From the IMG/VR virus record IMGVR_UViG_3300017697_000093, positions 1 through 24,396 of that record: a DNA stretch of 24,396 nucleotides; one strand, given 5' to 3'. The position numbers were made by a program, and so were the translations under genes. A model generated the notes under the pieces. That model saw only the letters and a list, made by a program, of their open reading frames with translations. It had not been told where the DNA came from and did not search any database. Positions 9,774 to 12,999 of the stretch are shown here, in pieces (the first letter of the stretch is position 1; every line of letters starts with the position of its first letter). The DNA comes from a virus.

Positions 9774-11756
9774 TTAATATGCCATGCCACGGTTTAACTC
9801 AACATTTCTCGTAAGGACTTGGTTGTACTTTCCTTCGTAGCTATTCTTGACGTTTGTGTATTGGTTGGCTTGTATAGGAGCAACAATGGGACTATCAAAA
9901 TTGCCAGCTCCTGTAGTTTCTGCACCCCTCTTACTTGCCTCAGCTGCAGCCGTAGCTCTTGATAAATCCAGAGCTACGAGGCTTCCTTCAATGCCAATTG
10001 AAGCAGCAGTGCCAGCGACTGGTACTACGCTAGCAATACCACTAGCTATTTCTAATCCTGCTCCAATAAAATCGCCACCTAATGCTCTCTTTGTGCCGAA
10101 AAACAACCCGGAAATTAGTCCTGCTACGGGGAAAGCTTTCAACGCCCCCTTTGCTAGGGATTTACCGGCCGCACCTGCAATTTTTGCGCTAGATGATACT
10201 GTTTTTGCAGCCTTCAATATACCCGTATTACTGACCGCACTTGATGTACTTCGTCTTAAAGCCATATCTTGTACGCTTCTTTGCGTTGCTTTTTCTGCAG
10301 CTCCCCTAGCAAGTCTTGCAGCAAGTGCTTTAGATGCACTATTTGATAACGCACTTGATGTACTTCGTCTTAAAGCCATTTCTCTTAGGTTTCTTTGCGT
10401 TGCTTTCATTGCATCTGCCGCAGCAAGTGCTTTCTCTGCAACTAATTTCTTGGCGGCAGCTGCCGGGGCGGCCACCTTTTTCTTGGCGGCCTCTGCAACT
10501 CTCGCCGCTTGTTGTGTAATTAATGTAGGTTTTTGTTTTAGTAAAGCTTTGCGTTGCTCTATAACTCTTTGGCTTACTGCTTGTCTTTGTGCCTTTTCTG
10601 CTTGTTGGACTCTTTTAATTCTATCAGCTTCTGCTTGTCTGGCAAGTCTTTCTTGTTTTTGAACTTCTTTAAGTCTATTAGCTTCTGCCAGTTTCGCAGC
10701 TCTTCTTACTGCTTGTCTTTGTGCCTTTTCTGCTTGTTGGACTCTTTTAATTCTATCAGCTTCTGCCCGTTTAGCAGCTTCGAGACGTTGACGCTGCTCT
10801 TTAGCTCTTTGCTTTACTTCTTTCGCCTTCGCCGCTCTTTGTGCCTTTTCAGCATCTCTTTGTGACTTCGAAACGCCTTCAGGTATTGCCGCCTTGGTGG
10901 AGCCCGTTAAAAAATTATATGCTGCAAACAACGCACCCACAGCAGCTGTTAATGGACCAAATATCAAAGCCAGTTTTGCAACAGTCATTAATGCGCCAAC
11001 ACTCAGCACACCCGCAACAATCAGGCCTATACCAGTTTTGTCACCAAATAATTCTTTAAATCCCTTTATGAGGCCGCCTTCTTCACCAAAGAATGCCTCA
11101 TAAAATCCTTTTAATTTTGGAATGAGAGTTCCAGAAATATACTTTGTTATTTTCTTGAAGGTGTCACTTTGCAGAAATTTACCAAGAGCAATCATCATTG
11201 CACCAATAGCAAGAGTAGAAAGAAGCGCCATACCACCTAACGCAGCGGTCTTCAACCCCTTCTTACCCATCTCAAATAGACCACCAATTCCAGCAGCAAT
11301 CTTATCTAGACGGGAACCATTCTTCTTTGCATCTGCTCTTGCTTCTTCTCTCATTTCTTTTTTAGCAGCAGGAGATGTTGCGTTTTTAATGCGTTGTGCG
11401 TAATCTGCCTTTCTTGCCTCATAACTTAATTTTTGAAACTCTTTATTGTCCTCTGCAATTTTACCATTTTCTTCTAATTCTTTTTTAAGAGCTATTGCCT
11501 GACCAGCAGATGTTTTACTCAATTCCTCTTCTTTTCTTGCAGATTCCCTTCTATCCTCATTCATTCTTTCCAGTTTTTTCACATTGTCTTTATGTTCTCT
11601 GGTCCTTTTGTCTTTGGAATTACGAACTTCATCACGCAAGTCAGTTAACTCACGGCTCTGGCTTAGCTTTGAGTCTGCTGCAGCTCTCTCGTTAGACCTT
11701 TGCAATTCTTCAATTGCTTTTGGAAATCTTGATGCAATTTCTTCTAAACTGGCCAT
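9774..11756 (-). CDS. Putative tail tape-measure or large tail structural protein
   Basis: This 660-residue protein is the largest in the window. Residues about 1-170 are charged coiled coil (RSNERAAADSKLSQSRELTD and similar). Hydrophobic stretches lie at about 180-205 (ALGGMALLSTLAIGAMMIAL) and 240-282 (LIVAGVLSVGALMTVAKLAL). Next comes a Lys/Gln/Arg/Ala-rich repetitive helix (about 295-440), then an Ala-rich repeat region and a Gly/Ala-rich hydrophobic C-terminal domain (FPVAGLISGLFFGTKRALGG). Long coiled coils with membrane-like segments fit a tape measure, as does a position downstream of the tail-assembly chaperone. I cannot align it to T4 gp29. The ATG has TAAGGAG 6-12 nt upstream. Confidence 0.6.
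   Translation of the reverse strand: MASLEEIASRFPKAIEELQRSNERAAADSKLSQSRELTDLRDEVRNSKDKRTREHKDNVKKLERMNEDRRESARKEEELSKTSAGQAIALKKELEENGKIAEDNKEFQKLSYEARKADYAQRIKNATSPAAKKEMREEARADAKKNGSRLDKIAAGIGGLFEMGKKGLKTAALGGMALLSTLAIGAMMIALGKFLQSDTFKKITKYISGTLIPKLKGFYEAFFGEEGGLIKGFKELFGDKTGIGLIVAGVLSVGALMTVAKLALIFGPLTAAVGALFAAYNFLTGSTKAAIPEGVSKSQRDAEKAQRAAKAKEVKQRAKEQRQRLEAAKRAEADRIKRVQQAEKAQRQAVRRAAKLAEANRLKEVQKQERLARQAEADRIKRVQQAEKAQRQAVSQRVIEQRKALLKQKPTLITQQAARVAEAAKKKVAAPAAAAKKLVAEKALAAADAMKATQRNLREMALRRSTSSALSNSASKALAARLARGAAEKATQRSVQDMALRRSTSSAVSNTGILKAAKTVSSSAKIAGAAGKSLAKGALKAFPVAGLISGLFFGTKRALGGDFIGAGLEIASGIASVVPVAGTAASIGIEGSLVALDLSRATAAAEASKRGAETTGAGNFDSPIVAPIQANQYTNVKNSYEGKYNQVLTRNVELNRGMAY
10236..10265. 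repeat. 30-nt direct repeat, copy 1 (tape measure)
   Basis: An exact 30-nt direct repeat of 10350-10379, offset by 114 nt (38 codons, so the reading frame is kept). It encodes the MALRRSTSSA repeat in the tape-measure candidate. Confidence 0.95.
10350..10379. repeat. 30-nt direct repeat, copy 2 (tape measure)
   Basis: The second copy of the repeat at 10236-10265. The encoded repeat units (AEKATQRSVQDMALRRSTSSA and an ATQRNLREMALRRSTSSA version) are part of a duplicated 38-residue segment. Confidence 0.95.
10573..10634. repeat. 62-nt exact direct repeat, copy 1
   Basis: An exact 62-nt repeat of 10705-10766, offset by 132 nt (44 codons). It encodes AEADRIKRVQQAEKAQRQAV in the coiled-coil region of the tape-measure candidate. 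The perfect identity implies a recent in-frame duplication or conversion. Confidence 0.95.
10705..10766. repeat. 62-nt exact direct repeat, copy 2
   Basis: The partner of 10573-10634. The 44-residue unit is a plausible ruler-lengthening step in a tape-measure protein. Confidence 0.95.
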
Positions 11757-12100: not shown

Positions 12101-12999
12101 TTAACTCCTATTTTTTCTTTCTTGTTTATCGTACTCCGCTTTCTCATCCTCCAAATGTTGTATCAATAAGCCAGAGTATATTTCTCTCTCCCACGGCACC
12201 ATATTCTCCAATTCAGTTAAACTCCAATTATGATGCTGTATCAATGCAAAATTTTGTTTATAATAATTTTCCACAGAGTCGTGAGACAGCCCTATTCTAA
12301 AAAACTTTCAAGACCCTCTAATAATACTTCTCCCTTTACCTTTGTTTTCGGATTAACAACATCAACAACATGTCGTAATTTAGGCATAGTTTCAAAAAAA
12401 TTCATTACATTTTCTAACTGTTCTGTGTTAAATGAATCAATAAATTCTGTAATTTCATCTTGTGTCATATCAATTCTATTAATTGTTTCCTCTCCACTGA
12501 TAACACTTTCGATGCATTCATAAACCATAATCATAGACTGTTCAAATTCACCAAAATTTTCATTTAAACCTTGAAGGTCTTTTAACCTTGGATATCTTAA
12601 TTTTAGTTTGATATTTTCTGTAATGACAACTTCCTGTGTGTGTTCTACACTACGTTGTACAGCAATTTCCTCTAAGTTAACTTCAATCCCAACTATAGTT
12701 TCGTCGTCATCTGGGCAAATAACATCAAGTTTTATTTTAGCACCAGCAGATTTTGCTCTTAATTGTAAAAACACATATTCAACATCAAACATTGGTGCAG
12801 TATTAGCATTCACAACACCAAAGGTGCAATTTGATATTAGTGTTGCCATAGCATCAGCAATTTGTTTTTCATCTTCTGATTCTTGAGCAATCATTAAAAT
12901 CTTTTGTTCTTTGACTAAGAATGGTCGATATTTAATTTTCTCCTGTGTTGATGGTAATGTTAGCCTATATTCTGAGGCTTGTAATTTGGGTAATGCCAT
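12101..12999 (-). CDS. 26-51: gp26-gp51-like -1 frameshift fusion (about 299 aa)
   Basis: After the T TTT TTA heptamer (12304-12298), a -1 slip enters a 65-codon frame ending at TAA (12103-12101). It adds RIGLSHDSVENYYKQNFALI, then QHHNWSLTELENMVPWEREI, then YSGLLIQHLEDEKAEYDKQE. The MVPWEREIYSGLL segment resembles the gp51-like baseplate hub assembly factor of marine T4-like phages. In the -1 frame an in-frame TGA lies at 12310-12308, so this frame opens only one codon before the slip site, and no good start codon lies before the conserved block. The layout parallels lambda G/GT: short chaperone plus long fusion, both upstream of the tape measure. Fusion length and frame are computed from the sequence; function is inferred. 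Confidence 0.82.
12292..12999 (-). CDS. 26: gp26-like baseplate/tail assembly protein (0-frame product)
   Basis: The 235-residue zero-frame product matches the T4 gp26-like baseplate protein pattern: MALPKLQASEYRLTLPSTQE, then KIKYRPFLVKEQKILMIAQESEDEKQIADAMATLISNCTFG. It continues DVEYVFLQLRAKSAGAKIKLDVICPDDD and VNLEEIAVQ. It also has the size and location of a tail-assembly chaperone, between a tail-tube-fold protein and the tape-measure candidate. The ATG is preceded by AAAGGATGATAAATT. The frame ends at TAG (12294-12292), one codon after a T TTT TTA heptamer, so this is the short form of a two-product gene. Confidence 0.85.
   Translation of the reverse strand: MALPKLQASEYRLTLPSTQEKIKYRPFLVKEQKILMIAQESEDEKQIADAMATLISNCTFGVVNANTAPMFDVEYVFLQLRAKSAGAKIKLDVICPDDDETIVGIEVNLEEIAVQRSVEHTQEVVITENIKLKLRYPRLKDLQGLNENFGEFEQSMIMVYECIESVISGEETINRIDMTQDEITEFIDSFNTEQLENVMNFFETMPKLRHVVDVVNPKTKVKGEVLLEGLESFLE
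12298..12319 (-). promoter_or_regulatory. Programmed -1 frameshift signal
   Basis: The slippery heptamer T TTT TTA (12304-12298) is in the zero frame with AGT before it. It is one of the classical slip sites, as in P2 E/E' (T TTT TTG) and HIV. An SD-like AGAGGG (12319-12314) sits 9 nt upstream, like the stimulator of E. coli dnaX. No strong downstream stem was obvious. The zero-frame stop is one codon after the heptamer and the -1 frame stop one codon before it. Confidence 0.85.

Follow-up and report, generated by a model that had tools for sequence, protein, structure and literature searches.

A gp26-like phage tail gene with a probable programmed -1 ribosomal frameshift into a gp51-like frame

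The window, i.e. the whole stretch of 24,396 nucleotides analyzed here (positions 1 to 24,396 of IMG/VR virus record IMGVR_UViG_3300017697_000093), comes from an uncultivated marine T4-like phage and carries a T4-like tail module on its minus strand. The gp26-like gene of this module overlaps a second open frame at its 3' end. The features of the locus and its surroundings are as follows.

14686-14243 (-): gp4, head closure
14238-13675 (-): gp2, DNA end protector
13702-13016 (-): tail-tube-like gene, immediately 5' of gp26 (phrog_45, E=6e-30)
12999-12292 (-): gp26-like gene, zero frame (short form, TAC-N), 235 aa, with matches to PF12322 and phrog_150
12319-12314 (-): internal Shine-Dalgarno-like AGAGGG, 9 nt upstream of the heptamer
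12304-12298 (-): candidate slippery heptamer T TTT TTA in zero-frame phase, one codon ahead of the stop
12298-12101 (-): predicted gp51-like C-terminal extension in the -1 frame, 65 codons plus the stop TAA
12292-12294 (-): zero-frame stop TAG, one codon past the heptamer
12290-12235 (-): possible long-range stem of GCTGT (12290-12286) with ACAGC (12239-12235), predicted fold
12096-11767 (-): ORF for a small membrane/EF-hand-like protein, between the chaperone gene and the tape-measure-like gene
11756-9774 (-): coiled-coil-rich ORF of 660 aa in the tape-measure position, assigned from position and length only

The gp26-like locus thus has a tail-tube-like gene upstream (phrog_45) and a tape measure downstream that is placed by position only. 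The 660-aa ORF harbours repeats of KRAEADRIKRVQQAEKAQRQA-like coiled-coil stretches; it gave no Pfam match and no meaningful similarity to the putative tape measure of HTVC008M. An Ala/Ser/Leu-rich open frame of 271 aa runs antisense to it (9847-10662, plus strand) and looks like the shadow frame of a repeat gene. The product of the small ORF at 12096-11767 displays an EF-hand-like motif, DTNGDGKVSPDEQQ, together with a hydrophobic, possibly membrane-spanning stretch; its match to PF13202 (EF-hand_5, E=0.002) stays under the curated cut-off.

The 3' end of the gp26-like gene reads CTT GAA AGT TTT TTA GAA TAG, and the phase of the heptamer permits tandem -1 slippage. An opening TGA at 12310-12308 and a closing TAA at 12103-12101 bound the -1 frame, which traverses the heptamer. 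The first ATG of this frame, at 12202, lies 96 nt past the slip, within a conserved block, in agreement with the preliminary description, according to which this frame has no convincing start. As in the -1 frameshift pairs of tail-assembly chaperones, the second frame is open across the overlap and a start of its own is not evident. Slippage would yield a fusion of 299 aa (234 residues plus 65 after the slip) with ESFLRIGLSHDSVENYYK as the peptide spanning the junction. All coordinates and lengths given in the preliminary description, among them those of TGA, the spacing of AGAGGG and the sizes of the two products (235 and 299 aa), were verified on the sequence, including the position of the heptamer one codon before the stop.

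The short form belongs to the T4 gp26 family (PF12322, T4_baseplate), with a score of 205.8 bits (E=9e-61, residues 10-234) against a curated cut-off of 24.5 bits, and it also matches phrog_150 (baseplate hub, E=1e-63). In the -1 frame, the stretch from 12104 to 12307 hits phrog_634 with E=8e-28, and it also hits the C end of phrog_150. No meaningful match was obtained in NCBIfam or in a profile search of PDB sequences. An AlphaFold model of the short form (mean pLDDT 89.9) has gp26-type proteins and unnamed phage proteins as its closest structural relatives among predicted viral structures. No PDB structure matched the model at E<=0.001, a search in which Foldseek may miss distant members. 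Because the model shows no likeness to a solved structure, the assignment of a chaperone function draws on literature and synteny.

This AT-rich window contains many runs of six T's (36 on both strands, where shuffles expect 45), so the T run by itself proves nothing; its conservation does. All 78 of the closest IMG/VR relatives containing the gp26 stop have T TTT TTA, T TTT TTG or T TTT TTC one codon before it, with identical stop spacing after the heptamer. A set of 250 related loci was compiled from IMG/VR relatives, Kyanoviridae cyanophages, pelagiphages, a Methylophilales phage and phages of Vibrio, Aeromonas, Cronobacter, Caulobacter, Sinorhizobium and Rhizobium; Vibrio phage nt-1 and Caulobacter phage Cr30, used as seeds, had few relatives in IMG/VR. 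The preliminary description had proposed an alignment of homologous loci and named homologues keeping the overlap without the heptamer as evidence against its reading. T TTT TTN was found in phase, 0 to 8 codons ahead of the gp26 stop, in 247 of the 250 loci (seventh base C in 162, A in 42, G in 24 and T in 19), and the exceptions were limited to three. These loci share descent and such counts are therefore not independent events; nearby synonymous positions vary freely, however. Entropy at the six T's is zero over 198 distinct sequences, whereas in the rest of gp26 Phe is encoded by TTT in 77% of cases and comparable third positions are T in 63%. Of 38,190 codon positions elsewhere in the gene, 21 carry an in-phase T6 motif. 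A heptamer of the X XXY YYZ type, in phase with the zero frame and close to where the first ORF ends, is thus conserved, and its arrangement with the -1 frame is far beyond chance.

The three loci lacking the heptamer are those of Stenotrophomonas phage IME-SM1 and of two distant phages, Ackermannviridae phage IME250 and Vibrio phage D531. IME-SM1 (L092, near 1920) has five T's where its relative Yut3 (L254, near 1920) has six; Yut3 carries the standard GAT TTT TTC GGC TGA. With one T short, the gp51-like frame of IME-SM1 is out of its usual relation, and the record either miscounts the homopolymer or reflects a genuine loss. In the Ackermannviridae phages IME250 (L093) and KP6 (L258) the -1 C-terminal frame is kept without T6, and the sequence there is ATT TTC ATT TAA. 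The frame is likewise kept without T6 in Vibrio phages D531 (L094) and K469 (L257), where an ATG overlaps the gp26 stop. These two pairs may use a different slippery site or re-initiation. Since IME250 and D531 keep the -1 frame without T6, distant relatives may arrive at the long form in other ways.

At the protein level, the -1 frame is under selection from the slip site onward. Over 33 sequences of the window clade, for the stretch from the zero-frame stop to the first in-frame ATG of the window, pN/pS of the -1 frame was 0.275, compared to 1.20 and 0.96 for the two other frames, which both contain stops. The -1 frame upstream of the first ATG is under purifying selection. An alignment of 14 diverse loci showed unrelated residues before the heptamer and conservation starting at FF, which corresponds to the heptamer itself, with the conserved block FFRIxLxHxxLExYYKxNFALxQHHKYSLTELENMxPWEREIY. 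In the 243 full loci the -1 frame spans 57-69 codons.

Both elements expected to stimulate slippage were enriched at the site. The SD-like AGAGGG 9 nt upstream of the heptamer, pointed out in the preliminary description, is present and has an anti-Shine-Dalgarno duplex energy of -6.3 in the window. Over 201 loci, pairing with the anti-Shine-Dalgarno sequence 3-20 nt ahead of the heptamer averaged -6.7 kcal/mol versus -1.5 at random in-frame positions, and an energy of -6 was reached in 60% of the cases versus 7% in the background. The Glu codon of the element is GAG in 114 cases and GAA in 34, against 1160 GAG and 2844 GAA elsewhere. Downstream, in 202 loci, the first two 42-nt windows 3' of the heptamer had a mean folding z of about -1.8 relative to synonymous-codon shuffles, compared to near -0.2 over the remainder of gp26. 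A Bellamy-like group of cyanophages displays a hairpin around CAYATG with base-pair covariation (C-G to T-A, G-C to A-T).

The short-range downstream hairpin of the window itself is weak (z -0.27). The 60-nt stretch holding the predicted long-range stem GCTGT/ACAGC has a z of -1.86 versus synonymous shuffles; taken from this sequence by itself the signal is weak, and the stem is no more than a lead. Among 34 distinct close relatives, 19 have the distal CAG and all of these are without the proximal GACAGC arm; 12 have the proximal arm, all with CAA, and 3 have neither. A linked switch between the proximal arm and the distal Gln codon is a lead, with linked inheritance within 50 nt as the alternative. 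The stem states, although linked, are discordant with the gp26 tree (L019, L025/L032), which suggests recombination near the frameshift site.

The overlap could also be read as two separate genes, the gp51-like protein starting alone or by translational coupling and the heptamer being incidental. Database records indeed mostly annotate gp51 as a short CDS of its own, D531 and K469 have an overlapping ATG without T6, and a TAATG or TGATG overlap at the gp26 stop that would permit re-initiation does occur, but only in 12 of the 243 loci. In the window, however, a start at the first -1 ATG would leave out half of the conserved domain. Selection and conservation, moreover, extend 5' of this ATG, the latter from the heptamer onward, which argues against the independent downstream start that the preliminary description had named as evidence against frameshifting. 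Separate genes would also leave the invariance of T6, the SD-like element and the folding signals without a reason, and we consider this explanation very unlikely.

The T run itself invites two further explanations. Homopolymer runs can trigger transcriptional slippage: the RNA polymerase inserts or omits a base and a subset of the mRNAs is fused, which would also predict some of the strictness with which T6 is conserved. As a rule the runs at which a polymerase slips are longer, about 9 or more, and most loci have six T's with A, C or G as the next base; the SD-like element and the downstream stem, furthermore, indicate the ribosome, which makes a role of the polymerase most improbable. Homopolymers are error-prone in sequencing and assembly as well, as the single T by which IME-SM1 and Yut3 differ may illustrate, and the real gene might then be a single in-frame fusion. 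The frame relation is the same, however, in 247 of the 250 loci, from many assemblies and isolates. An error in the T run, also raised in the preliminary description, is excluded by the hundreds of contigs and refuted for the family; its probability is close to nil.

The gp26-like gene is therefore best regarded as a probable tail-assembly-chaperone gene with a programmed -1 ribosomal frameshift giving a short form of 235 aa and a long form of 299 aa; from the sequence data we put the probability of this reading at roughly 0.92. The same frameshift had been proposed in the preliminary description, and the anatomy of the site, the conservation, the selection on the -1 frame and the match to T4 gp51 all lend support to it. 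Most ribosomes would read AGT TTT TTA GAA TAG and stop, producing the short form. The AGAGGG element, together with an RNA stem downstream in most relatives, would cause a fraction of the ribosomes to slip by -1 on T TTT TTA, and these would continue for 65 codons to the long form with its gp51-like C-terminal domain. By analogy with G/GT of phage lambda, the shared N part may coat the tape-measure protein while the C part may recruit tail-tube subunits. We infer the occurrence and the efficiency of slippage as well as the chaperone function, a role taken from the literature.

The comparison with T4 changes how gp51 is to be understood. The C end of T4 gp51 matches phrog_634 (1e-23) and the C end of phrog_150, and is thus homologous to the extension in the window. 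T4 gp51 (249 aa) covers positions 13-280 of the 282 of phrog_150, while T4 gp26 (208 aa) covers only 14-235, and the two T4 proteins are mutually similar (BLASTP E=2e-6). As judged from these profiles, T4 encodes the long form in a dedicated gene, 51, and the short form in gene 26, where the lineage of the window has one gene and a frameshift. The gp26/gp51 fusion put forward in the preliminary description stands, with the refinement that gp51 is no separate gene in the window, T4 gp51 itself spanning the whole fusion profile. T4 and the window share the protein family (phrog_150, PF12322) and the short and long forms, but T4 has two diverged genes on opposite strands: gene 25 follows gene 26 and gene 51 lies on the opposite strand. 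The gene plan of T4 recurs in Karamvirus and in an Acinetobacter relative, whose gp26 genes lack the heptamer. It is conceivable, with about even odds, that a -1 frameshift with an internal SD, T TTT TTN and a downstream stem (its 3' arm mobile, proximal or distal) is the rule in most T4-like phages outside the T4 group and probably ancestral, genes 26 and 51 of T4 being a later replacement by gene duplication.

Frameshifts in tail genes, classically those of lambda and P2, were reportedly treated by Xu, Hendrix and Duda in 2004. Like lambda G/GT and P2 E/E', the gene in the window would shift by -1 shortly before its first ORF closes and would yield a short and a fused long form, and it has a putative place between tail tube and tape measure; the slippery sequences of the lambda and P2 genes differ or vary. 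The site also resembles that of E. coli dnaX in its SD-like element (about 10 nt upstream in dnaX), slippery heptamer and downstream structure, but dnaX is an unrelated gene with A AAA AAG as its slippery sequence and a frameshift product that is shorter rather than longer. A literature search found no paper directly on a gp26/gp51 frameshift; the work of Vladimirov et al. from 2022 is quoted here through citing papers, and its title refers to a mechanism other than frameshifting. In a 2025 paper, poly-T -1 signals in T4-like chaperone genes are, in the passage concerned, credited to this work (PMC12846349), and the PRFect paper likewise cites it there (PMC10885494; Vladimirov, Gautam, Davidson 2022, Virology 566:9-15). 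The Vandenendeviridae and Andersonviridae described in the former paper also have a -1 shift on a poly-T motif where TAC-N ends, with the downstream ORF annotated as hypothetical, but they are other phage families and conserve GTTTTT rather than the full T TTT TTN (PMC12846349). To the question raised in the preliminary description, whether such a frameshift was known for T4-like phages, these citing passages give an answer in part: it appears to have been, by Vladimirov et al. 2022. Tail-gene frameshifting, that in T4-like phages included, thus appears to be known already. Possible additions are the wide sampling of loci, the test of selection at the level of codons, the signals of SD-like pairing and of folding, and the account of why cyanophage gp51 is short.

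None of the database records examined has the fusion annotated. The 'two genes' of these records, gp26 and a truncated gp51, would be one recoded gene in phages that are very common in the ocean. Cyanophage gp51 was reported to have only ~20% of the length of other gp51 proteins, its first ~200 residues missing (Sullivan et al. 2010, PMC3037559). The frameshift would account for the residues that are 'lacking' in the short gp51 of cyanophages and marine vibriophages. The locus would then provide a clear case in which one lineage uses recoding, and another two genes, to obtain the same pair of short and long proteins.
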